A DNA stretch of 64,000 nucleotides from Candidatus Omnitrophota bacterium (GCA_018812925.1 JAHJCU010000004.1:370289-434288), one strand, 5' to 3'; shown: positions 10,242-56,095, counted from the stretch's first letter. Numbers and translations: made by a program. The notes: generated by a model not told the origin, from the sequence alone.

Positions 10242-10312
10242 TTTGGCTCCTTATTGATAAGAGAAATTGTACTCCTATATCTTGAAAAGTGTCAAAAGGG
10301 AAATAGGTTTTT

Positions 10313-10345
10313 ACTTACAGCTTATAGCTTAAAGCTTACCGCTAA
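10313..10345. repeat. R1 heptamer array upstream of mnmG
   Basis: CTTACAGCTTATAGCTTAAA followed by GCTTACCGCTAA is one arm of the R1 type with about 7-nt steps, 17 nt before the mnmG start. It is translated as an in-frame extension if a start at 10254 is used, which argues against that start. Confidence 0.7.
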
Positions 10346-10361
10346 TGTTAAAATATCTCTA

Positions 10362-13588: not shown

Positions 13589-13675
13589 TTCTAGATGCTA
13601 CCTGCCCGCAAAGATTGGCAGGCGGGGATTCTTGTTGTTTTTACTAGTATCTAGCATCAAGTATCCAGTATTTAT
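13589..13675. repeat. Heptamer-array inverted repeat R3 with embedded GC palindrome (Pal-A)
   Basis: The left arm GATTCTAGATGCTA and the right arm ACTAGTATCTAGCATCAAGT plus ATCCAGTAT have 7-nt steps (TCTAGTA/TCTAGCA/TCAAGTA). Nested at 13601-13627 is CCTGCCCGC, a 7-8 nt loop, then GCAGGCGGGG. This is a Pal-A element in the opposite orientation to the copy at 14921. The array precedes carA. The bases 13676-13731 show no clear promoter. Confidence 0.75.
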
Positions 13676-13731: not shown

Positions 13732-14820
13732 ATGAAAGCGAAATTAGTATTAGAAGACGGTAGTTGTTTTGAAGGTATTTCCATCGGCGTCCCCGGCGAA
13801 AAAATCGGCGAAGTCATCCTCAATACCACAGTTGTAGGTTATCAGGAAATGATGACAGACCCTGCGAATGCGGGCAAAATTTTAGTCCTCACATATCCTC
13901 TTATCGGCAATTATGGTATAGCCGAAAAATTTAACGAATCAAAAAAATGTTGGCTGGAAGGTCTGATTATAAAAGAAAGCAGCAAGATGTATTCCAACTG
14001 GCAGGCGGAAGATAGTTTCGAAAATTTCCTAAGCAAAGAAAAAACCGTTGCAATAAGCGAGATTGATACAAGGACATTGGCTGTTAAAATCAGAGACAAT
14101 GGCGAGATGCTGGGAATAATTTCCACCCAAGATACAAATGAAAAGAAATTGCTACAGAAGTTACAAAAAGCCGCAAAGAATATAAAGAAAAATTTTATAA
14201 AAGAAATTTCCGTAAAAGAAGTCACAAAAATAAAACCCAACTCTTCCGGTTCCAAAATAGCGATATTGGACTTGGGAATTACTAACGGATTTATTAAACA
14301 ATTAAAAACTCTGGGATGTAATATAACTTTATTACCATACGATACAGATGCGGATAAAATATTGAAATCGGGATTTGATGCTGTAGTTATTTCCAATGGT
14401 CCCGAAGCTGACGAAGCAATCCCTATAATCACACAAACTACGAAAAAACTGCTCGGTAAAATTCCTGTTTTAGGAATATCCACGGGACATGAAATCATCG
14501 CTCTTGCGCTAGGTGGGAAACTGAAAAAAATGGCAATGGGACACCGCGGTGTAAACTATCCGGTTAAATCGCCTGATTCGTTTAAAGGGGAAATTACCGT
14601 TCAAAACCATTCATTTATTGTGGATGAAGATTCTATAAAGAATCGAAAAGACACCCGCGTAACTTTGCGCAATGTAAACGATAATTCTATAGAAGAGATG
14701 GAAAGCAAGTCCCTAAAATTTATTTCAACGCAATATTATCCACTCAGTCCGGGGTTTGATGAAGTAAATGAAGTATTTAAAAGATTTTTGAAAATGATGG
14801 AGAAGACCCGTAAATCGTAA
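13732..14820 (+). CDS. carA: Carbamoyl phosphate synthase small subunit CarA, glutaminase residues lost
   Basis: CarA normally hydrolyses glutamine and channels ammonia to CarB. The protein is 362 residues. The N-terminal domain is typical (LVLEDGSCFEGISIG, VVGYQEMMTDP, LTYPLIGNYGI, ISEIDTRTLAVKIRDNG). The C-terminal class I amidotransferase domain keeps its fold markers (ISNGPEADE, MAMGHRGVNYPV, QNHSF) but not its catalytic triad. The nucleophile motif GICLGHQ reads GISTGHE, with Ser250 in place of Cys, and the HPE motif reads QYYPLSP, losing both His and Glu. Vertebrate CPS1, which uses free ammonia, also has Ser at the Cys position. The partner CarB follows. I infer an ammonia-dependent enzyme; moonlighting or a missing glutaminase partner are alternatives. 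Confidence 0.93.
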   Translation: MKAKLVLEDGSCFEGISIGVPGEKIGEVILNTTVVGYQEMMTDPANAGKILVLTYPLIGNYGIAEKFNESKKCWLEGLIIKESSKMYSNWQAEDSFENFLSKEKTVAISEIDTRTLAVKIRDNGEMLGIISTQDTNEKKLLQKLQKAAKNIKKNFIKEISVKEVTKIKPNSSGSKIAILDLGITNGFIKQLKTLGCNITLLPYDTDADKILKSGFDAVVISNGPEADEAIPIITQTTKKLLGKIPVLGISTGHEIIALALGGKLKKMAMGHRGVNYPVKSPDSFKGEITVQNHSFIVDEDSIKNRKDTRVTLRNVNDNSIEEMESKSLKFISTQYYPLSPGFDEVNEVFKRFLKMMEKTRKS

Positions 14821-14975
14821 ATGGTAAATAGTAATTGGTAATCTACAATCCGTAAGGCGTAATCAGTAATTGGTAAATGGTAATTAAATAATAAAGACAA
14901 CTTAAAAGGTTACGAATTACGCCCGCCTGCTTGCGAAGCGGGCAGGCTTTATGAGTTACTAATTACGGTAATTTA
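14812..14975. repeat. Heptamer-array inverted repeat R2 with embedded Pal-A between carA and carB
   Basis: The left arm CGTAAATGGTAAATAGTAAT and following TGGTAAT units step by 7 nt. The right arm is TGAGTTACTAATTACGG. At 14921-14947 sits the GC-rich GCCCGCCTGC-TTGCGAA-GCGGGCAGGC. In this element GCCCGC can pair with GCGGGC, or the adjacent GCCTGC with GCAGGC, giving two mutually exclusive hairpins. The array begins inside the carA stop region and ends at the carB start, with no standard ribosome binding site. Confidence 0.75.
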
Positions 14976-14977
14976 AT

Positions 14978-17900
14978 ATGCCTAAAAGAACAGATATACA
15001 TAAAATTTTGATTATAGGGTCGGGGCCGATAATTATAGGTCAGGCCTGTGAATTCGACTATTCCGGTTCTCAAGCGTGTAAAGCGCTACGAGAAGAGGGA
15101 TATCATACCGTTCTTATTAATAGTAATCCGGCTACAATCATGACAGACCCGGGAATGGCGGATAAAACTTATATCGAACCGCTTACTGTGGATATAGTAA
15201 CGGAGATAATAAAGAAAGAAAGACCTGATGCAATTCTTCCCACGCTGGGGGGACAAACAGGTTTGAATCTCGCATATTTCTTAATGAAAGAAGGGATACT
15301 TAAAAAATACGGTGTTGAATCAATAGGCGCAAACATAGAAGCGATATCAAGAGCCGAAGACAGGGATTTATTCAAAAAAGCGATGCAGGAAATAGGAATT
15401 AGCATGCCAAAAAGCGGTATTGCAACAAGCGTTGAAGAAGGGTTGAAAATCGGGCTTAAAATAGGATTCCCGTTGATTTTAAGACTGGCTTATTGCATGG
15501 GCGGAAGCGGCAGTTCTATCGCTTATAACAAAGAAGAATTGGAAGTATTCCTGGCAAAAGGGCTTGAAATAAGTCCTGTAGGACAGGTGCTTGTCGAGCA
15601 ATCGGTTGTGGGGTGGAAAGAAATAGAATTTGAAGTGATGAGAGACAGTGTTGATAATGTGATTATGATTACTTCAATGGAAAATATAGACCCCATGGGA
15701 GTGCATACGGGAGACAGTATTGTAGTCGCCCCTTCTCAAAGTTTAACCAAAGAGGAATACGCGCAATTTGTAAATTTATCCAAGAAGATTATAAGAAAAG
15801 TTGACATAACCGGCGGCGGGGCAAATATTCAGTTTGCCCAAAATCCCGAGAATGGAGATATCGTTATAATAGAAGTAAACCCGCGGCTATCAAGAAGTTC
15901 CGCGCTGGCTTCCAAAGCTACGGGATTTCCTATTGCAAGAGTAGCTACCAAACTTGCCATAGGGCTTACGCTTCCTGAAGTTTTAAACCAAATTACAGGC
16001 AAAACCACTTCGTTCTTTGAACCGACTGTTGATTATTGCGTATTTAAAATATGCAGGTTCACGTTTGAGAAATTTCCTCAAGCCGAAAAAACTTTAAACA
16101 CATCAATGAAAGCCGTAGGCGAAGCAATGTCCATAGGCAGAAATTTCAAGGAAGCGTTTCAAAAGGGAATAAGGTCTACTGAAACGGGAAGGTTCGGATT
16201 TGGGGCTGACGGAAAAGACAAAATATCGGATGAAATGTTAAAATCACCTTCAACAGATTTAATCGAATCAATAAAAGAAAAAATAAGAACCCCTAACGAC
16301 GAGCGGTTATTTAATATCAGATATGGGTTCAAAATGGGGCTTTCAATTGATGAGATATATGAACTTTCAAAAATCGACAAATGGTTTTTAGATAATATGA
16401 AACAACTTATAGGAATAGAAGAAGAGATGAAGCAATTCAGAGGACAGAAGTCAGAATCCAGAGGGCAGAAAACAGAAAACAAAAGACAGAAATCCGAAAT
16501 TACAATTCCTGTAAAACTACTTAAAAAAGCGAAGATGGATGGCTTTTCTGATATACAGATTGCACATCTTATTAATTCCACCGAGCAAAAAGTAAGAGCA
16601 TACAGAAAGAAAAATAACATAAAGGCGGTTTATAAATTGTTAGATACATGCGCGGGAGAATTTAAAGCAGAGCGACCGTATTATTATTCAACCTATGAAA
16701 CAAAAGACGAGAGTATTCCTACGGGGAAAAAGAAAGTCCTTATTTTGGGAGGAGGTCCCAATAGAATAGGTCAAGGCATAGAATTTGATTATTGCTGTGT
16801 TCATGCTTCATATGCTCTGCAGGAAGAAAATGTTGAAAGCATTATGGTCAACTGTAATCCTGAAACCGTTTCCACAGATTATGATACCTCAGACAAATTA
16901 TATTTTGAGCCCTTAACCGTTGAAGATGTATTAAATATTATTGATTTGGAAAAACCTGTGGGAATAATAGTCCAGTTTGGAGGACAGACGCCTCTTAATA
17001 TGTCGGTTCCGCTTTGGAAATTAGGAATTAATATTCTGGGGACAAGCCCTGATTCTATAGATAAAGCCGAAGACAGAAAAAGATTCCAACAGATAATCAA
17101 GAAGCTTAAAATTATCCAACCTGATAACGGAACAGCTAACAGCCTGGAAGAAGCCCAAAAAGTAGCAAATAAAATAGGTTATCCCGTAATTGTAAGACCA
17201 TCCTATGTACTCGGCGGTAGAGCGATGGAAATTGTTTATGATGATGAAGGGTTGGCTGATTTTATGGCAAAAGCCATAGAAGTATCTCCGGGACATCCAA
17301 TACTTGTTGATAAATTCCTTGAAGATGCGATAGAAGTGGATGTGGACGCGATAGCTGACGGGGAAAGATGCGTTATAGGCGGCATTATGGAACATATCGA
17401 GGAAGCGGGTATACATTCAGGTGACAGCGCAATGGTTATCCCGACTTATACGCTATCCAAAGAAATACTAAAAACAATAAAAGAAAATACGTATGCTCTG
17501 GCAAAGGAGTTGGAAGTAAAAGGATTATTAAATATTCAATACGCGGTGAAAGATAATGTTGTATATATTCTTGAAGTAAATCCGAGAGCTAGCAGGACCA
17601 TACCGTTTATAAGTAAAGTTATAGGAGTGCCTCTTGCTAATCTTGCAACAAAAATAATGTTGGGTAAAACGCTTAAAGATTTGGGATTCACCAAGGAAAA
17701 AGAAATCAACTGTGTTGCAGTAAAAGAATCAGTCTTCCCGTTTATACGCTTCCCGGGCGTAGATGCGGTGCTTGGTCCGGAAATGAGATCCACGGGAGAA
17801 GTTATGGGAATAGACTCAACATTCGGCGTTGCATACGCAAAAAGCCAGATAGCGGCAGGACAGAAATTACCTGTAAAGGGAAATGTGTTTATCAGCGTAA

Positions 17901-18289: not shown

Positions 18290-18295
18290 CTCTAG

Positions 18296-18371
18296 CTGTA
18301 AGTTTTAAGCTATAAGCTGTAATAAATAAAATCAATGCGCTTAAAGCTTATGACTTATAGCTTAAAGCTAA
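18296..18371. repeat. R1 heptamer inverted repeat between carB and the second purF
   Basis: The left arm is AGCTGTAAGTTTTAAGCTAT and AAGCTGTAA. The spacer is AATAAAATCAATGCG. The right arm is CTTAAAGCTTATGACTTATA followed by GCTTAAAGCTAAGG. The last bases, AAGG, fall 9-12 nt before the next ATG and can serve as its ribosome binding site, so the repeat seems to be built into the 5' leader. Confidence 0.8.
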
Positions 18372-19798: not shown

Positions 19799-19880
19799 AG
19801 GGCTATAAGCTTTAAGCTATAAGTTGTAAGTAAACACTAATTTTAGAAATTTTAAACTTAAAGCTTAAGGCTTATAGCTG
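19799..19880. repeat. R1 heptamer inverted repeat upstream of glmS
   Basis: The left arm is AGGGCTATAAGCTTTAAGCT and ATAAGTTGTAAG. The spacer is AAACACTAATTTTAG. The right arm is CTTAAAGCTTAAGGCTTATA and GCTGAGG. The terminal GAGG lies 7-8 nt before the glmS ATG and serves as its ribosome binding site. No glmS ribozyme core was recognised in this leader. Confidence 0.8.
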
Positions 19881-24254: not shown

Positions 24255-24280
24255 CCCGTTAGAGAAAATTCTCTAACGGG
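24255..24280. repeat. Perfect palindrome CCCGTTAGAG-N6-CTCTAACGGG
   Basis: A 10-bp perfect stem around AAAATT lies in the 180-nt gap between the divergent GAF-ANTAR and nth genes. GTGAGCGGAGTTTGACGG follows directly. It is too far from either gene end to be a terminator and looks like another small palindromic element. Nothing else is recognised in the gap. Confidence 0.7.
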
Positions 24281-44765: not shown

Positions 44766-44851
44766 TTGATGCTAGATACCGGGTACTAGATTCTAGTTTA
44801 ATAGGTTTTTCTTGTCTGTTTCTACGAGTATCAAGCATCTAGTATCAGATT
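44766..44851. repeat. R3 heptamer-array inverted repeat downstream of pheT
   Basis: The left arm has TGATGCTAGATACCGGGTAC and TAGATTCTAGT. The right arm has CTACGAGTATCAAGCATCTA and GTATCAG. The steps are 7 nt and the arms are complementary (GATGCTAGATAC against GTATCAAGCATC). The T-rich spacer runs through 44800-44822. Confidence 0.75.
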
Positions 44852-44860
44852 CCTTTTGTT

Positions 44861-47299
44861 TTAAAATCGGCTTCTTAACTTTAGACCTAATTCTTCTAAT
44901 TTTTTGATGATTTTATCTTGCAACTGATTAATTTCTTCATCAGTTAATGTTTTTTTATTTGAACGGAAACACAAAGAATAGGACATGCTTTTAAAACCGC
45001 CCGGAACTTGTTTGCCTTTATAATAATCAAACAGTTTTATATTCTCCAGCAGCTCTTTGGTCTCTTCCGACATTATATTTTCAATCCGAGCTGAAGAGAT
45101 ATCATCCGGAACTATAAAAGAAACATCTCTTACAACGGGTGGATATTTAGGCACGGCCTCTATTTTTTTCTTTAGCCGAACAAACGGCAATAGTAATTCC
45201 ATATCAATCTCAGCAATGTAGGTTTTTTCTTTTAACAAAAAATTATCCATTAACACAGAATTCGCTTCCCCCATTACTCCGACTTTAACATTATCTTTCA
45301 AAAGTGAAAACGTATATGTTTCGCCAAAAACAGAATGTTTATCTTTATTGTAGTCAAGTTTTATTCCAAGCTCTTTAAAAAACGTTTCAATCACACCCTT
45401 TAACATATAAAAAGACGATTTTACGCCGCTATTAATCCAATTCGGCTGTTGCCAATCACCGGTCAATAAAATTCCCAAACGGATATTTTCTTCGGGTAAC
45501 TTATTTTTCCCATATTTATATATGCTGCGAAGCTCAAAAACTTTTATGTTTTTCTCACCTCTTGAGATATTTTCTTGTGCTACCTGAAGAAGTGAAGGAA
45601 TTAAAGAATATCTTAAAATTTCAAATTCTTCCGAAATGGGATTATCTATTTTGATAGTCTCGTCCATCATGCCCATTGCGGCTTTTTTAAGCAAATCAAC
45701 GCTTATAAAAGAATAATTTACGACTTCGTTTAGGGAAAGTCTGTTTAATATGCTACGGCATTTCTTAACAATTTTTTCTTTGTTGTCTTCCTTGAGAGAA
45801 GGCCCGCCTGCTCCGAAGCGGGCAGGCATTCTGCCTAAAGGAAGAGATAATGGGATAAGGTCATAATTGTTTATTCGCGCTATTTCCTCTATTAAATCAA
45901 TTTCTTCTTCAATGTCATTTCTCCAACTCGGAACTTGTACTTTCAAACAACTACCGTCTTTTTTTGTCTCAAATCCTAATCCTTGAAGGATTTTATTATA
46001 GGAAGGAATCTCTATTCCAAGCACTCGTTTAATTTCAGAGGGATTGAAAGAAATCGTTTTTTTCGCTATTGTTTTCTTTTTATCGACAATTCCTGAAACA
46101 ATTTCTGCGCCTGATAATTCCTGTATAAGAGAACAGACACGGTTTACTGCAAACTCAGTGCCTTCCAAATCCACCCCTCTTTCAAAACGATAAGAACTTT
46201 CACTTGCAATATTTAAAGATTTCGATGTTTTTCTTATAAGTGTCGACGAAAAATTTGCGCTTTCAAGTAGAATATTTTTTGTGTTTTTATTGACTCCCGC
46301 TTCTTCCCCGCCCATTATGCCTGCAAGAGCAATAGGTTTTTTGCTATCGGCTATAACGAGAACCTGCCCTAAATCGAGCCTGCTCCGGTTCGAGGCATTA
46401 AAAGAGAGAGCTCTTTGTATCCCGTCTAAACATAAAATCTTTTCGTTCTTTTGGGCTTTTCTTACTATTATCTTTTTGTCTGTTATTTTTTCGTAATCAA
46501 AAGCATGTAAAGGTTGTCCTGTTTCAAGCATTACATAGTTGGTTATATCAACTATATTATTTATGGGACGAACTCCGGAAAGAATAAGCCGACGCCTCAT
46601 CCAATGCGGAGATTCTTTGATGTGGACTCCCTCAGCCATTCTGGCAGTATATCTGGGACATAGTCCGGAGTCTTCAACTTTAACCTCTATCTTGTCTTTT
46701 ATATTTTCTTTTGTTTCTTTAATTACAATCTTCGGCAGTTTTAATTTTTGAGAAGTTAATGCGGCAAATTCCCTGGCAATGCCCATTATAGATAAGCAAT
46801 CTCCTCTGTTAGGCGTTATCTTGATATCAACCACAGCATCATCCGTTTGGATTTCATCTGTCAATTCATTGCCTGCTTTGCATTTATCAGGCAAAATCCA
46901 TATTCCTTGAGAATTATCTTCAAGCTCTAATTCTGCTTTAGAACAAATCATTCCCTCAGACTCTACTCCTCTCAGTGCTCTCTTTTCTATTTTAAATCCG
47001 TTTGGAAGAGTGTTCCCGGGCAAAATTACAGGGACCTTTATTGCTTCTTTTACGTTGGAAGCGCCACAAATAATCTGTTTGATAGAATCTTCGCCGACAT
47101 CAACCATACAAATAGTCAGTTTATCGGCAGATGGATGTTTTTTTACAGAAAGGACTTCGCCTATTTTTATCCCGCGAAGAGTTGCAGATTGCTCAATTCT
47201 TTCTACTTCAATCCCCAACTGTAATAATTTTTCGGCAAGTTCTTGGGAAGAAAAAGGAATTTCTATAAACTCTTTAAGCCAATTAATCGGAACTTTCAT
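44861..47299 (-). CDS. pheT: Phenylalanyl-tRNA synthetase beta subunit PheT with palindrome insert
   Basis: PheT is the large subunit of the alpha2-beta2 PheRS. It is 812 residues. The N-terminus is MKVPINWLKEFIEIPFSS. The EMAP/tRNA-binding domain follows (IGEVLSVKKHPSADKLTICM, VDVGEDSIKQIICGASNV), then the B3/B4 editing domain (NPNRGDCLS-like ITPNRGDCLSIMGIAREFAA), B5 and the inactive catalytic core. The C-terminal FDX-ACB anticodon domain includes KYPPVVRDVSFIV. A Pal-A element at 45802-45827 encodes MPARFGAGGP near residues 491-500, in a loop before LKEDNKEKIVKKCR. pheS is not upstream in this window; the sufB-like gene is. Confidence 0.96.
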   Translation of the reverse strand: MKVPINWLKEFIEIPFSSQELAEKLLQLGIEVERIEQSATLRGIKIGEVLSVKKHPSADKLTICMVDVGEDSIKQIICGASNVKEAIKVPVILPGNTLPNGFKIEKRALRGVESEGMICSKAELELEDNSQGIWILPDKCKAGNELTDEIQTDDAVVDIKITPNRGDCLSIMGIAREFAALTSQKLKLPKIVIKETKENIKDKIEVKVEDSGLCPRYTARMAEGVHIKESPHWMRRRLILSGVRPINNIVDITNYVMLETGQPLHAFDYEKITDKKIIVRKAQKNEKILCLDGIQRALSFNASNRSRLDLGQVLVIADSKKPIALAGIMGGEEAGVNKNTKNILLESANFSSTLIRKTSKSLNIASESSYRFERGVDLEGTEFAVNRVCSLIQELSGAEIVSGIVDKKKTIAKKTISFNPSEIKRVLGIEIPSYNKILQGLGFETKKDGSCLKVQVPSWRNDIEEEIDLIEEIARINNYDLIPLSLPLGRMPARFGAGGPSLKEDNKEKIVKKCRSILNRLSLNEVVNYSFISVDLLKKAAMGMMDETIKIDNPISEEFEILRYSLIPSLLQVAQENISRGEKNIKVFELRSIYKYGKNKLPEENIRLGILLTGDWQQPNWINSGVKSSFYMLKGVIETFFKELGIKLDYNKDKHSVFGETYTFSLLKDNVKVGVMGEANSVLMDNFLLKEKTYIAEIDMELLLPFVRLKKKIEAVPKYPPVVRDVSFIVPDDISSARIENIMSEETKELLENIKLFDYYKGKQVPGGFKSMSYSLCFRSNKKTLTDEEINQLQDKIIKKLEELGLKLRSRF
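45802..45827. repeat. Pal-A element inside pheT
   Basis: GCCCGCCTGC-TCCGAA-GCGGGCAGGC is nearly identical to the intergenic copy at 14921-14947. Translated in frame on the minus strand it gives part of MPARFGAGGP, a stretch with no counterpart in ordinary PheT. Confidence 0.8.
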
Positions 47300-47380
47300 T
47301 TTCGGGTAAATTATACCCTAAAACTTAAAAATTCAAAAATTATGATGTGCAAGAACTCATCTTGAAATTTAAAGGTGGAA

Positions 47381-48547
47381 TTACATCGTTTCTTCTTGGC
47401 AGGACTTGACCAAATCATCAATGCCTTTCTGAAGTTCGGGCGGAAGACCTAAAATAGCAGTATCCATAAAACCTCTTACTATGACAGCTTGTGCTTCTTC
47501 GGAGTTTAAGCCCCTTGTCATAAGATATTCAATTTCTTCTTTTGCAATTTTACCGACTGCCGCTTCATGCGACATATCTAAATCTTTATTTTTCCCCTCA
47601 AGTTCGGGAATGGCATGTATAACTCCTCCGGAAGAAAGAATAAGTCCCCTGCATTCCAAATGCGCTTTTACAAAAGGGGCTTCGCCCTTCAAGTGTCCTC
47701 TTGCGATAATCGTTCCCCCGTTCGTTACCGCGCGCGATATTATCTCCGCTTTTGTATTGGGCTTACTTAAAATCACACGAGAACCGACATCTATATGCGA
47801 GTTGGGGTGGGCATACAGGATTGAATTAAACCGCGCCGTTGCGCCTTCGCCTATTAAAGTTGCCGTAGGATACATCTGAAGAGATTTAACTGGTTTAAGG
47901 CAAATATAATTAGATAAAAACATGCCACCTTCCTCCACAACTGCTTTTGATCGAGGGCGAACGACAACCTCTTCAGCCCAATTATGAATCATTGTAAATT
48001 TTACTGTCGCATTTTTCTTTATATAGAATTCGGATATGCCGACATGCGCGCCTTTTTTTACATAAGAAGCCGTCGTGCATCCGGTTATTATGTTCAACTC
48101 TGAGCCCTCTTCGGCAATAATAAGATTATGGACATTCTGTAGCAGATTTTCTTTCTTCAAAAAAAGACAGGATTGAATGGGATGCGACACTTTGACACCT
48201 CTTAACGCTCTTATAAAATAGCCGTTACGCGAATCTTTTTTCGCTAGAGCTGTATATTCATCTCCATCTTTAGAAACAGCATTCCACCAATATTTCTTTA
48301 GCCAATCGTATTTCTTTAAAGCATCGCTTATATTCATTACCTCTAAACCCTTTTGTAAGCTCTTGGCATGAATAACGCTATGGTCTGCCTGTATAAATGT
48401 CCCTGAACGACCTTTTTCGGAAACATCTACCCCTGTTTCAATGAGATTCTTTCTATCTGCAACAGAAATCTTAGAAAGGTCTTTTTGATAAGAATGTTCT
48501 TTTGTTTCTCTGTCAAATTTATGAATTTTTATTTCTTTATCTAACAT
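47381..48547 (-). CDS. SufB/SufD-family Fe-S scaffold protein (SmsB-like)
   Basis: This 388-residue member of the SufBD family is shorter than classical SufB (about 470). The beta-helix core and conserved C-terminus are present: ECRGLILSSGGVIHAIPELE with Cys, then DMSHEAAVGKIAKEEIEYLM and TRGLNSEEAQAVIVRGFMDT. This matches SufB's C-terminal scaffold region with its conserved Cys, His and Glu. Only SufC accompanies it; SufD, SufS, SufU and SufE are absent. Two-gene SufC-SufB systems are known from archaea and anaerobes and are regarded as ancestral. It starts 6 nt after the ATPase gene. Confidence 0.9.
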   Translation of the reverse strand: MLDKEIKIHKFDRETKEHSYQKDLSKISVADRKNLIETGVDVSEKGRSGTFIQADHSVIHAKSLQKGLEVMNISDALKKYDWLKKYWWNAVSKDGDEYTALAKKDSRNGYFIRALRGVKVSHPIQSCLFLKKENLLQNVHNLIIAEEGSELNIITGCTTASYVKKGAHVGISEFYIKKNATVKFTMIHNWAEEVVVRPRSKAVVEEGGMFLSNYICLKPVKSLQMYPTATLIGEGATARFNSILYAHPNSHIDVGSRVILSKPNTKAEIISRAVTNGGTIIARGHLKGEAPFVKAHLECRGLILSSGGVIHAIPELEGKNKDLDMSHEAAVGKIAKEEIEYLMTRGLNSEEAQAVIVRGFMDTAILGLPPELQKGIDDLVKSCQEETM

Positions 48548-48553
48548 ATTTTT

Positions 48554-49294
48554 TTAACCCTCTTTAATAACTTCGGGTTTCTTCCTGTGACATCTTACGC
48601 ATTCCTGATAACCATGTTTTCGAATCCTGCTTAAAATATCATGTGGGTCACCTACGCATTGAATTTTCTTGTTAGATAAAACACATCCTCTATTAGCATT
48701 TACATAATTAAGGATATGTCCCGTGTGAGTAATAATCAGAGCAGATTTATCTTTTCCCAATAATTTACTTATAACTTCGCCTATCAAGACGATATTTTCC
48801 AAATCCACGCCTGATTCCGGCTCATCTAGGAGCAAAAGGTCGGGCGATTGGGTTGTAAGCTGTAAAAACTCCGAACGCTTCATCTCGCCGCCGGAAAAAC
48901 CCAAATTCAGGTCCCTATCCAAAAAATCTTTCATGTTTAATTTGTCAGCCATTTTTTCAATATCTATTTTCTTTTTGGCAATATGACTGATAAGTTCAAC
49001 CATCTGCCTCATCTTTACACCTCTTACAGTGGGCGGTCTTTGAAGTAAAATACTAATTCCAAGTCGTGCGCGCTGGTCTATGGATAGTTTATTTATGACT
49101 TTGCCTTTGAAGATTATTTTACCTTTGGTTATTTTATACTGCGGAAAACCCATTATAGCCATAACAAGTGATGTTTTTCCGGAACCGTTTTGTCCGAACA
49201 TCACAGAGGTTTGTCCTTTTTCTATACTAAAATTCACTCCGGTGAGAATTTTCTTGCCGGAAATTTCAACATGTAAGTTTTCTATTGACAGCAT
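48554..49294 (-). CDS. SufC-like ABC ATPase (SmsC-like)
   Basis: This 246-residue ATPase partners the SufB-like scaffold. Walker A is MFGQNGSGKTSLVMAIMG, the signature LGFSGGEMKRSEFLQL, Walker B DLLLLDEPESGVDLENI, and the switch His is in LIITHTGHIL. The ordering and spacing fit SufC. The C-terminus carries an unusual extra Cys-rich tail, GCVLSNKKIQC and YQECVRCHRKKPEV, which could hold a metal or cluster. First gene of the two-gene operon. Confidence 0.92.
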   Translation of the reverse strand: MLSIENLHVEISGKKILTGVNFSIEKGQTSVMFGQNGSGKTSLVMAIMGFPQYKITKGKIIFKGKVINKLSIDQRARLGISILLQRPPTVRGVKMRQMVELISHIAKKKIDIEKMADKLNMKDFLDRDLNLGFSGGEMKRSEFLQLTTQSPDLLLLDEPESGVDLENIVLIGEVISKLLGKDKSALIITHTGHILNYVNANRGCVLSNKKIQCVGDPHDILSRIRKHGYQECVRCHRKKPEVIKEG

Positions 49295-49375
49295 AGTAGT
49301 ACCTTTAATAATAAATTAAACTACAAAGGATAGCACACCAAAAAACGAGTAGCAAGTAGATACGGATTTCAACAA

Positions 49376-50440
49376 TTAAATTTTATATTTCTTGAGTTGT
49401 TCTAATGCCGTTTTAACAAATTTCCCGAATTTTCGGTCTTTTCTTCTTTTTTCAAGTTTCGTCATTTGGTAATAATCGACTTCTTTTTTTAATTTAAGAT
49501 AATTTGAATATTTATTCTCATCTAACTTGTTGTATTTTATAGCGTCTAAAACGGCGCATCCGGGTTCACTTATATGGGTACAGTCGCTGAATCCACATTT
49601 TTTAGCCAAAGCGGATATTTCATTAAAAACATTTTTTAGCCCCAATTTTGAGTCTACCATTCCTATTTCTCTCATTCCCGGATTATCTATTACAATCCCT
49701 CCGTTTTTTAGGAAATACATTCCTCTGCCGGAAGTGGTATGTTTGCCTCTGCCGGTATGTTCACTTATTGTGTTGGTTTTTATATTATCCGTTCCAAGCA
49801 GTTTGTTTATTAAAGATGACTTCCCCACCCCTGATGAACCAAGGAAGCAATATGTTTTTCCTTTTTTTATATATGATGTCAATTTATCTAATCCCTTGTC
49901 AGCAATGGTGCTTGTAGGAATAACGACTATACTCTTGAACCTGTTGTTTATCTGGGTTATTTTAATATTTAACTCCGCGGGGGGAATTAAATCGATTTTA
50001 TTCAATACGATAGCAGGCTTTATATTCCCGTCTTTTGCTATGGCAAGACATCTTTCCAATCGATTCAGATTATAATCTCTGTCAACCGACTCTACGGCAA
50101 AGGTAACATCGATATTTGCGGCAATAACTTGAGTTTTTGTTTCATTGCTGTATTTTCTCTTCAACATTGTCTTCCTCGGCAATATTCCGCAAATTACGGC
50201 CCGCTCGTAGTCAGGTTCGGTAATGGACACCCAATCTCCGACGGCAGGATAATCTGCTCTTGATGAAGCATTAAACATTTGTCTGCCGGTTATTTTAGCC
50301 AAGTATTCATTGGTAGTATTTTTTACTATATAAGCCTCTTTGTGTCCGGCGATAACACGCGCAACTGAATAGGCACCCAATCCTAACAGTTTGCGGTTAG
50401 ATTCAAAAAAAGCGCGATAACCCAAATCTTTTAGTTTCAT
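49376..50440 (-). CDS. rsgA: Ribosome small subunit-dependent GTPase RsgA
   Basis: RsgA checks late 30S maturation. It is 354 residues with the circularly permuted G domain: G4 NKIDLIPPAE first, then G1 FLGSSGVGKSSLINKLLG, then G3 VIDNPGMREIG. The N-terminal OB fold contains DYPAVGDWVSI. The C-terminal zinc site is CGFSDCTHISEPGCAV (C-x4-C-x-H-x5-C). Basic residues form the C-terminal tail. It is transcribed alone. Complete and typical. Confidence 0.95.
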   Translation of the reverse strand: MKLKDLGYRAFFESNRKLLGLGAYSVARVIAGHKEAYIVKNTTNEYLAKITGRQMFNASSRADYPAVGDWVSITEPDYERAVICGILPRKTMLKRKYSNETKTQVIAANIDVTFAVESVDRDYNLNRLERCLAIAKDGNIKPAIVLNKIDLIPPAELNIKITQINNRFKSIVVIPTSTIADKGLDKLTSYIKKGKTYCFLGSSGVGKSSLINKLLGTDNIKTNTISEHTGRGKHTTSGRGMYFLKNGGIVIDNPGMREIGMVDSKLGLKNVFNEISALAKKCGFSDCTHISEPGCAVLDAIKYNKLDENKYSNYLKLKKEVDYYQMTKLEKRRKDRKFGKFVKTALEQLKKYKI

Positions 50441-50530
50441 TTTATGATTGCGTAATTTCTAAAAGATGAGACATTTTCATCTATTTAAAATATCCGAAGC
50501 AATTTTATACAAGAATAACAGATAACACAA

Positions 50531-51988
50531 TCATCGTCTTGGTCTATTATTTCCTGACCGACCCGAGGTTGGCGATGATGAGCGCTTGCGTTTATGGGAG
50601 AATCGGCCGGGGCGCGAACCACCTGAATGTGGACTGCTTGAATGTAAACCACCCGAACGTGAACTACCTGAACGAGGACTATTTGAACGTGAGTTACCTG
50701 AGCGGGAACCGCCAGAAGAAGAACGACCTGAGCGGGAACCGCCTGAATAAGAACGGTTGCGAGAACGTGATGAACCTTGTTGTCTGCCCCCTTCGGGAGA
50801 AAATTTATGAGCGCTGGATTGTGGAAGGTCTGCCGGAAGCGGTGAAATCGGAAGGGTTTTTCTTATCAGCCTTTCAATACGCTGCACATCGCGCCGCTGG
50901 TCTGAAGTAACAAAGGAAATTGCGTGTCCATTAGCGCCGGCACGGGCTGTTCGCCCGATACGATGTACATAATCTTCAGAATTGTCAGGAAGGTCATAGT
51001 TAATTACCAGTTCAATGCCGATTACATCAATGCCTCTTGAGGCAACATCAGTAGCAACTAATATTCGATATTTTCCAGATTTGAATCCTTGAAGAGCCGC
51101 ACGACGTTGAAAAAGGGAACGATTAGAATGAATTTCGGCAGCTTTATGACCAATACTACAAAGCATCTTTGTAAGTTTACTCGCTCCGTGTTTTGTCCTT
51201 GTAAAAATAAGCGTCTGCCCGGGATATTGTTTTAAAAGATTTTCCACCAGACGGGATTTTAAATTTTTTGAAATAATAAAAATTTCCTGAGTTACCTGTT
51301 CAACTGTTGTCCCTGTAGGGGCAACTTCTATTCTAATCGGAACTTTCATATATTTCGTAGCCATATTCATAATCGCGTGCGGTATTGTCGCCGAGAAAAG
51401 CATAGTTTGTCTTTCACGCGGAAGCGCGTTGAAAATTATTCTAATCTGGGGCTCGAATCCCATGTCCAACATACGGTCTGCTTCATCAAGCACAACAATA
51501 AAAACATTTTCAAGTCGCAAGGTTCTTTGCTGTAAATGATCATTAAAACGACCCGGGGTTGCTATAATAACGTGCGGATTTCTGTGAAGCGCTTGTATTT
51601 GAGGGCGTATTGCCGTACCGCCGATAATAACTGCCGTTCTTAAGCCCATATCTGCGCCGACTTGGTGTAAGGCTTCGTCAACTTGTATTGCAAGCTCACG
51701 CGTGGGAACTACTACCAAACCGCGCCCTCCCGCCTGCTTGCTTCCGCAAGAAGCGGGCAGGTTTGTTTGACTCAATCGCTGGATCATCGGAATACCAAAA
51801 GCAATAGTTTTACCGGTACCCGTTTGCGCAATACCAACCACATCCTTACCTTCGATTGCGATTGGTATGGCTTGGCGTTGAATCGGAGTAGGTTCTTTAT
51901 AATTTAACTTTTCCAGCGTTTTCAAAAAACCGGGCATAATGCCCAACCCCGAAAAACCGGTATTTTTTTGTTGACTGTTTGGACTCAT
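50531..51988 (-). CDS. DEAD-box RNA helicase with Ser/Arg/Gly tail and palindrome insert
   Basis: This 485-residue ATP-dependent RNA helicase is probably RhlE- or CsdA-like. The Q motif region is FLKTLEKLNYKEPTPIQRQA and motif I VGIAQTGTGKTIAFG. PTRELA, then VLDEADRMLDMGFEP, LFSATIP and HRIGRTARAG follow. The insert TNLPASCGSKQAGG (about residues 76-87) is encoded by a Pal-A element between motifs I and Ia. From about residue 405 a low-complexity Ser/Arg/Gly tail (SRSGRSSSGGSRSG and similar) probably binds RNA. It is encoded by a 15-nt minisatellite. Likely role: ribosome assembly or RNA decay. Confidence 0.93.
   Translation of the reverse strand: MSPNSQQKNTGFSGLGIMPGFLKTLEKLNYKEPTPIQRQAIPIAIEGKDVVGIAQTGTGKTIAFGIPMIQRLSQTNLPASCGSKQAGGRGLVVVPTRELAIQVDEALHQVGADMGLRTAVIIGGTAIRPQIQALHRNPHVIIATPGRFNDHLQQRTLRLENVFIVVLDEADRMLDMGFEPQIRIIFNALPRERQTMLFSATIPHAIMNMATKYMKVPIRIEVAPTGTTVEQVTQEIFIISKNLKSRLVENLLKQYPGQTLIFTRTKHGASKLTKMLCSIGHKAAEIHSNRSLFQRRAALQGFKSGKYRILVATDVASRGIDVIGIELVINYDLPDNSEDYVHRIGRTARAGANGHAISFVTSDQRRDVQRIERLIRKTLPISPLPADLPQSSAHKFSPEGGRQQGSSRSRNRSYSGGSRSGRSSSGGSRSGNSRSNSPRSGSSRSGGLHSSSPHSGGSRPGRFSHKRKRSSSPTSGRSGNNRPRR
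50616..50765. repeat. 15-bp minisatellite encoding the helicase tail
   Basis: About ten tandem copies of a 15-nt unit of GAACCACCTGAATGT / GAACTACCTGAACGA type run along the 3' end of the DEAD-box gene. Each adds five residues (SG-containing pentads). Copy number is free to vary without frameshift. Confidence 0.75.
51729..51761. repeat. Pal-A element inside the DEAD-box gene
   Basis: CCCGCCTGCTTGC-TTCC-GCAAGAAGCGGGCAGG shares the outer arms of the copies at 14921 and 45802, with a longer centre that forms its own CTTGC/GCAAG stem. It is in frame and codes for NLPASCGSKQAGG. Confidence 0.8.
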
Positions 51989-54049: not shown

Positions 54050-54075
54050 CATTAGTTTATTTAACGTCTTTATTG

Positions 54076-54100
54076 TCTTTACTAGTATCTAGTATCCTAA
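54076..54100. repeat. Single-arm R3 array
   Basis: TTTACTAGTATCTAGTATCC and TAATC carry 7-nt steps of the R3 type, at the 3' end of the oxidoreductase gene. No matching left arm was found nearby. Confidence 0.55.
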
Positions 54101-54104
54101 TCTT

Positions 54105-55022
54105 CTATTTTCCTAACTTCTCGCATATCAAATTAGCTAATTGCAGTGCTTTTAAGCCGTCTTCTCCGCTTACTTTAGGTTGTCTATTATACTGTACGCA
54201 GTCAAGAAAATCTTTTAATTCTTCTTTTAAAGGCTCTTTCTTATCTATTGGAACAGGCGTTTTTTTGATGGTATTGCCTTCGCCTTTTTCGAGCATATCT
54301 ATCGTTTGATTAAAATAATCAAGCGAAATATAAGAATTTTTCTGAAAAATTCTAATTTTCCTTAAAGCTTTTTCACTTACTCTAGATGCCGTAACATTCG
54401 CGACGCAACCGGATGCAAAATGTATTCGAGCATTCACAATATCAGCCGTTTTTGAAAGCACCTCTGCGCCAACAGCATCTATTGATTTAACAGGAGAATT
54501 GACAAGCTGTAAAATTATATCCAAATCATGGATCATAACTTCCTTAACGACATTTGTTTCCGTGCCTCTGCCTGGGTAAGGACCTACACGATGGCATTCT
54601 ATAAAGAGAGGACTAGAAACGATTTCGCCTAATTTTATAACGGCCGAGTTATATCTTTCCACATGCCCAACCTGAAGAACCAGTTTGTTTTTTATCGATA
54701 ATTCAATAAGTTCTAAGGCCTCTTTTTCAGATGAGGTAATTACTTTTTCTACCAGAACGTGTATTCCGTTTTCCAAAAAATATTTAGCTATTAAATAGTG
54801 AAATTTAGTAGGAGTAGCGATGCTCACACCATCTACTTTGCCTATAAGTTGTCTGTAATCGGAATATGGCGTTGTGTCAAAATTTGAAGCTATTTTATCC
54901 CTTTGTTCGTCTGATGAATCACATACTCCTACAAGAGAAGCATTTTCTATTTCAGAAAAAATCCGCGCATGCCTTTGGCCCATATAACCTACGCCGATAA
55001 CTGCAACTCGTATCCTTTTCAT
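54105..55022 (-). CDS. Gfo/Idh/MocA-family oxidoreductase
   Basis: This 305-residue NAD(P)-dependent dehydrogenase begins RIRVAVIGVGYMGQRHARIF with the Rossmann GxGxxG. SIATPTKFHYLIAKYFLENG and HVLVEKVITSSEKEA follow; the usual EKP reads EKV. HVERYNSAVIKL and VVKEVMIHDLDIILQLVNSP supply the catalytic-type motif (HDLD). It lies in the lipid A block after lpxI, where similar genes often sit, and may modify a UDP-sugar. Substrate unknown. The loss of Pro in EKP is mild and occurs in some members. Confidence 0.85.
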   Translation of the reverse strand: MKRIRVAVIGVGYMGQRHARIFSEIENASLVGVCDSSDEQRDKIASNFDTTPYSDYRQLIGKVDGVSIATPTKFHYLIAKYFLENGIHVLVEKVITSSEKEALELIELSIKNKLVLQVGHVERYNSAVIKLGEIVSSPLFIECHRVGPYPGRGTETNVVKEVMIHDLDIILQLVNSPVKSIDAVGAEVLSKTADIVNARIHFASGCVANVTASRVSEKALRKIRIFQKNSYISLDYFNQTIDMLEKGEGNTIKKTPVPIDKKEPLKEELKDFLDCVQYNRQPKVSGEDGLKALQLANLICEKLGK

Positions 55023-55998: not shown

Positions 55999-56095
55999 AA
56001 AATCAGAAGTCAGATTGCAGATGTCAAAAGTTAGTATAGATAGCCAGGGTTTTTAAACTATTTTTTCTGTCTTCTATCATCTGTTTTCTGTGTCC
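55999..56095. repeat. R4 heptamer-array inverted repeat between lpxI and lpxA
   Basis: The left arm has AATCAGAAGTCAGATTGCAG and ATGTCAAAAG. The right arm has TTTTTTCTGTCTTCTATCAT and CTGTTTTCTGTG. These are the same units found inside carB (CAGAAGT and similar), here as both strands around a spacer. Confidence 0.8.

Follow-up and report, generated by a model that had tools for sequence, protein, structure and literature searches.

The genome of Candidatus Omnitrophota bacterium analysed here carries a dispersed family of short hairpins that we read, with a probability of about 0.7, as non-autonomous mobile DNA of 24-39 nt, inserted as a folded single strand with the help of a putative trans-acting enzyme. 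Each unit has the form CCCGCCTGC-N6..21-GCGGGCAGG, in which the two 9-nt arms are fixed and the loop is variable. Four copies lie in the window, by which we mean the whole stretch of 64,000 nt that was analysed (Table 1). An earlier sequence-only reading had placed a unit of 26-33 nt at 13601, 14921, 45802 and 51729, and all four copies are present there, between genes or in frame within them; the exact length range is 24-39 nt, and the G/C bordering the copies at 14921 and 45802, which had been taken into the element, is host sequence. The peptides MPARFGAGGP (pheT) and NLPASCGSKQAGG (DEAD-box gene) are encoded as claimed; the copies themselves supply PARFGAGG, which separates the B5 domain from the catalytic-like domain, and NLPASCGSKQAG, immediately ahead of the PTRELA motif. 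The copy at 13601-13626 sits between units of a 7-bp-period array of TAGCATC/TAGTATC type, and that at 14922-14946 stands within an ATTACGA-type array.

Table 1. Hairpin copies in the window and the genes that host two of them (feature, position, strand, loop, context).
26-nt copy	13601..13626	-	CAATCTTT	intergenic, upstream of carA
25-nt copy	14922..14946	+	TTGCGAA	intergenic, carA/carB
24-nt copy	45803..45826	+	TCCGAA	in frame in pheT, antisense to pheT
33-nt copy	51729..51761	+	TTGCTTCCGCAAGAA	in frame in DEAD-box gene, antisense to gene
pheT, 812 aa	44861..47299	-		hosts copy 45803
DEAD-box RNA helicase gene, 485 aa	50531..51988	-		hosts copy 51729

Separately, tandem repeats at the 3' end of the DEAD-box gene (window 50617-50691) code for a Ser/Gly/Arg-rich tail, the length of which differs among relatives.

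To find further copies, we searched the whole host genome (G000, a 92% complete MAG of 1,470,419 bases, or 1.47 Mb, at 37% GC). The near-exact pattern CCGCCTGC-N0..25-GCGGGCAGG occurs 47 times, while the reversed pattern does not occur at all, and the element is therefore real and not a product of chance. A stricter pattern still gives 46 copies; these numbers count exact arms, and decayed copies would add to them. As had been noticed from the window, the element is GC-rich in AT-rich surroundings, at 72% GC against 37% in its flanks. Its termini read CCCG and CAGG, all six frames are open in 36 of the 47 copies, and the loops fall into families (TTGCGAA, n = 9; TGCGAA, n = 8; CTTGCGGAA and CTATCGGTT, n = 3 each), next to a group of 15-mers beginning with TTGCTT and others. 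Every exact CCGCCTGC and GCGGGCAGG in the window belongs to a paired element, and of the 74 right arms in the genome, 47 have a partner and many of the remainder are decayed copies; we rejected a DNA uptake signal on these grounds. Around 20 unpaired right arms (a non-exhaustive set), we saw decayed or chance copies only, and no longer autonomous element with the same terminal arms.

The arms CCCGTTAGA/TCTAACGGG define a second palindrome, which forms a 66-bp in-frame insertion in the pheT gene of the congener G001 (L220/L237) that is absent from G000, and a perfect 26-nt copy of it lies between divergent genes at window 24255-24280. Some hairpin copies seem to be nested in decayed second palindromes (L004, L005 and L031). 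The arms of the two differ, and we rejected the second palindrome as a member of the hairpin family.

The element is mobile, and its presence or absence varies between congeners. In a comparison of about 575 kb with G001, limited to the ten sites of G000 that could be aligned and made, like all others here, between MAGs, six sites were empty and four occupied, which supports the earlier impression that insertion has been recent. The pheT and DEAD-box sites, which are among the six, are empty in all three nearest relatives (G001, G002 and G003): their orthologs lack the peptide exactly at the insertion point, and all three read straight through the pheT site. The pheT junction is GAGA-AGGCATT in G001 and GAGA-AGG[CCCGCCTGCTCCGAAGCGGGCAGG]CATT in G000, and the DEAD-box junction is CGCGCCCT-TTCG when empty and CGCGCCCT[33 nt]TTTG in G000. 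At each of the six empty sites the net gap is 0. A further line of evidence comes from position 141789 of contig C10 in G000, where a 27-nt copy lies within an inverted 24-nt copy; excising the inner copy restores the perfect 24-mer CCTGCCCGCTTCGCAGCAGGCGGG. A check for target-site duplications, as proposed from the window, found neither duplication nor deletion at the six empty sites or at the nested copy. Since the empty sites and the nested copy are independent lines that agree on the same ends and on the absence of duplication, insertion is precise and leaves the target neither duplicated nor shortened. In two other genes, G000 and G001 share one insertion point and carry different loops there (RsmD-like, L007 versus L213, 33 versus 24 nt; transketolase, L034 versus L197, 33 versus 36 nt), with length differences that are multiples of 3. 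Loops must therefore be exchanged in place, or elements re-inserted at the same spot.

Within genes, the element is found only where its length is a multiple of three. A total of 26 of the 47 copies lie in ORFs (about four of them close to one end of the protein, where the gene boundary may be mis-set), and about 21 are intergenic; all 26 copy-bearing ORFs have Pfam matches. The length is divisible by 3 in 26/26 of the ORF copies versus 11/21 elsewhere (Fisher p = 7e-5), and all ten copies that measure 25 or 26 nt lie outside the copy-bearing genes. These genes encode PheT, a ValS-type synthetase, the NAD-dependent DNA ligase LigA, PGK, PFK, transketolase, UvrC, ParB, HypF, a V/A-type ATP synthase subunit, a GatA-type amidase, CoaBC, pyruvate:ferredoxin oxidoreductase, an RsmD-like methyltransferase, fumarase, IspF (YgbB), RseC, Lnt, RACo, the DEAD-box helicase and others. 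When compared with solved homologs, the inserts in LigA, PGK, PheT and the DEAD-box helicase fall in gapped or variable stretches (the OB/zinc-finger junction, a loop, the B5 linker and a variable loop, respectively), and those of CoaBC and ParB fall in inter-domain linkers. Selection would purge insertions that break the frame of a gene, and short in-frame ones in surface loops or domain linkers would be tolerated; the element itself is probably selfish DNA with no benefit to its host.

The arms consist of two overlapping 6-mers in a non-nested order (GCCCGC, GCCTGC ... GCGGGC, GCAGGC; that is, A-B...A'-B'). They can pair as CCCGC/GCGGG, as CCTGC/GCAGG, or over their full length with one C.A mispair and one T.G wobble, and this last fold is the RNA minimum for short copies. 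The two competing hairpins proposed earlier are therefore real, but the term palindrome holds only in part, since the arms keep strictly to their swapped order: a search of all sixteen CCYGCCYGC...GCRGGCRGG combinations in G000 recovered it at essentially every site, with one variant site and overlaps of the nested site as the exceptions, and found no perfectly self-complementary version of the arms. The C.A and T.G irregularity, which gives the stem its strand polarity, is kept at essentially all sites. Enzymes that act on folded single-stranded DNA (TnpA_REP, IS200/IS605 transposases and integron integrases) recognise stem irregularities, and by analogy a fixed irregularity is what a strand-specific enzyme of this kind would read. 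TnpA_REP of E. coli requires such irregularities, and its activity is lost or falls severely once the bulge of the REP is corrected (PMC8266576). We propose that folding of one strand would juxtapose both ends of the element, that a putative trans-acting enzyme would recognise the stem through the fixed C.A mispair and T.G wobble, and that the folded hairpin would be joined into a nick or single-stranded gap; the next replication would then make it double-stranded, so that no duplication would be left.

The element has no strong target sequence. There is a weak leaning towards AT-rich sites (A at -3 in 27/47, T at -2 in 29/47, T at +3 in 27/47), and no fixed target tetranucleotide was found at the left end of the 47 copies. 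Known Y1 enzymes rely on a fixed guide or cleavage motif, whereas here even the best target positions are conserved in only 27-29 of 47 copies. Orientation is biased in G000 (C-rich strand, 33/47; p = 0.008), which may be confounded with gene strand, and not in the Bacteroidia copies described below (13 versus 8); with a bias that is significant in G000 only, we rejected replication-strand insertion as a general rule. Many intergenic copies break degenerate 7-bp-period arrays in phase: once the element is removed, self-match at lag 7 is 8.2 SD above shuffles in G000 and 16.7 SD in Bacteroidia, and viral copies give 5.8 SD at lag 9.

Such degenerate heptad arrays form several families in the window (TAAGCTN, GGTAATT, CAGAAGT and CTAGTAT types), are mostly intergenic (763-839, 1191-1289, 10301-10351, 14800-14970, 16445-16511, 18293-18369, 19801-19879, 44806-44847, 54070-54127 and 56004-56090), and commonly surround intergenic hairpin copies. 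They resemble the heptanucleotide arrays of cyanobacteria. In the amidase gene (L043), a CTGTCCT-type array containing a hairpin appears to fall within the coding sequence, and these arrays too may therefore enter genes.

Unrelated lineages share identical arms, as do contigs classified as viral. The stricter pattern, surveyed across 386 genomes, was present in 26, against one control hit overall. Two genomes of the same genus as G000 have 17 and 3 copies, the genome of the same family (G003) has none, and two of the same class have 7 and 12 copies with another loop (TCCCGGAGG type). There are 9 copies in G007, the lone representative of another phylum among the genomes compared, and 13 in G222 (95% complete). 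Two MAGs of groundwater Bacteroidia together contain 19 occurrences of the exact 24-25-mer, and a Desulfotomaculum MAG contains one. Many IMG/VR contigs contain the element, some in multiple copies, though single matches in GC-rich contigs may be due to chance. In the viral contigs L092, L089, L104 and L118, several copies are seen, often amid 9-bp arrays (GGACACAGA) and with the loop CTCGCGTTGCGAAGCATT, which suggests phages as possible carriers between hosts. A broader reading, which we offer tentatively and regard as somewhat doubtful, is that the 18 shared arm bases mark one hairpin family moving among many bacterial phyla and phages, into intergenic heptad arrays and essential genes and without target duplication, by a route that no bacterial transposon is known to take; an example would be a folded single-stranded hairpin being ligated into nicks.

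The alternative that survives best, although we consider it unlikely, is that the element is a REP and owes its spread to a RAYT (Y1 TnpA_REP) transposase, which the genome would later have lost or which would be encoded in the 8% that the assembly lacks. With 47 copies of 24-39 nt, the element is a multi-copy, imperfect palindrome in the 20-40 nt range of REPs, and it also shares with REPs a hairpin with fixed mispairs, variable loops, occurrence across species and a partly intragenic location. Moreover, Y1 genes are present in G001, G002, G005, G007 and both Bacteroidia, and one RAYT of G001 has decayed copies 0.5-1.2 kb off. Against this, Y1_Tnp is absent from G000 and from G222 despite their 47 and 13 copies, and is not commoner with the element across genomes (10/15 multi-copy genomes versus 26/40 without it). 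No RAYT was directly flanked by copies at any locus examined, the target tetranucleotide is not fixed, and the 8-nt flanks of the 47 copies hold a GTAG/CGTC tag in a single case (GTAG 0, CTAC 0, CGTC 1, GACG 0). Given its absence from these two genomes, the lack of adjacency and the lack of cross-genome association, we rejected Y1/RAYT as a resident mobiliser.

It is also conceivable, but in our view improbable, that no transposase is involved and that host replication or repair enzymes ligate nuclease-resistant hairpin oligonucleotides, derived from degraded DNA and possibly from neighbours, into nicks. Such capture would fit the absence of target duplication, the weak target preference, the ends juxtaposed by the fold, the sharing across phyla and the lack of a common Y1 transposase, but it leaves unexplained why it is this one arm pair, mispairs included, that is retained, and why one loop type appears in local bursts (TTGCGAA, n = 9). 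That the element is an ordinary functional hairpin (a terminator, mRNA stabiliser or protein-binding site) kept by host selection is very improbable, for despite a stable RNA hairpin and about 21 intergenic copies, it is already disfavoured by the empty sites, with 26 copies in ORFs, several missing in close relatives, one nested in another, and no consistent T-run in the flanks listed.

Rickettsia provides the best-known case of palindromes inserted in frame. The mobile hairpin that we favour is a shorter, untagged element that inserts in frame in some twenty-five genes, including many conserved and essential ones, in a host lineage that is poorly sampled and known here from assembled genomes alone, where clean empty sites fix its ends to the base. 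It amounts to a natural experiment on the places at which an essential protein can accommodate 8-13 additional residues, and it cautions against taking peptides of this kind in MAG proteins for functional motifs, when they are mobile DNA. As its arms recur across phyla, comparison could reveal the mobiliser. A search of open-access texts with the arm 9-mers found no description of the element, and the papers listed were all unrelated.

Among known systems, the nearest kinds are RPEs and REPs, although the element carries no tag, is linked to no transposase and makes no MITE-like duplication. Like RPEs, it is a palindromic repeat tolerated in frame within housekeeping proteins, and no dedicated transposase is known for RPEs of the CGTC type (PMC2229807, PMC3733652); CGTC repeats apparently have none of their own (PMC3733652). 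The likeness to RPEs drawn in the sequence-only reading thus holds as a functional analogy and not as family membership, since size, sequence and host differ: RPEs are found in Rickettsia and are either longer (105-146 bp, PMC2229807) or CGTC-tagged (RPE-4, RPE-6), whereas the element measures 24-39 nt, is untagged, and has arms recurring across phyla. REPs of the GTAG and CGTC families are likewise hairpins of 20-40 nt with fixed stems, variable loops and stem irregularities; their loops vary, they are shared by distant species, and some of their copies lie within genes, including those for RNA helicases and tRNA synthetases (PMC3733652). Unlike them, the element has no GTAG/CGTC tag and no RAYT link, is intragenic in more than half of its copies, and usually occurs as a monomer. 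With MITEs (Correia, RUP, ERIC), it shares non-autonomy, imperfect terminal inverted repeats and possible in-frame read-through, but it is much shorter, GC-rich and free of target-site duplication, and no parent insertion sequence was found around the 20 unpaired right arms. Finally, it has no cassette, insertion sequence or fixed target as attC sites and IS200/IS605 elements do, but by analogy (PMC8266576 and general knowledge) it resembles both as a folded single strand that would be read by its stem irregularities and inserted without target duplication.
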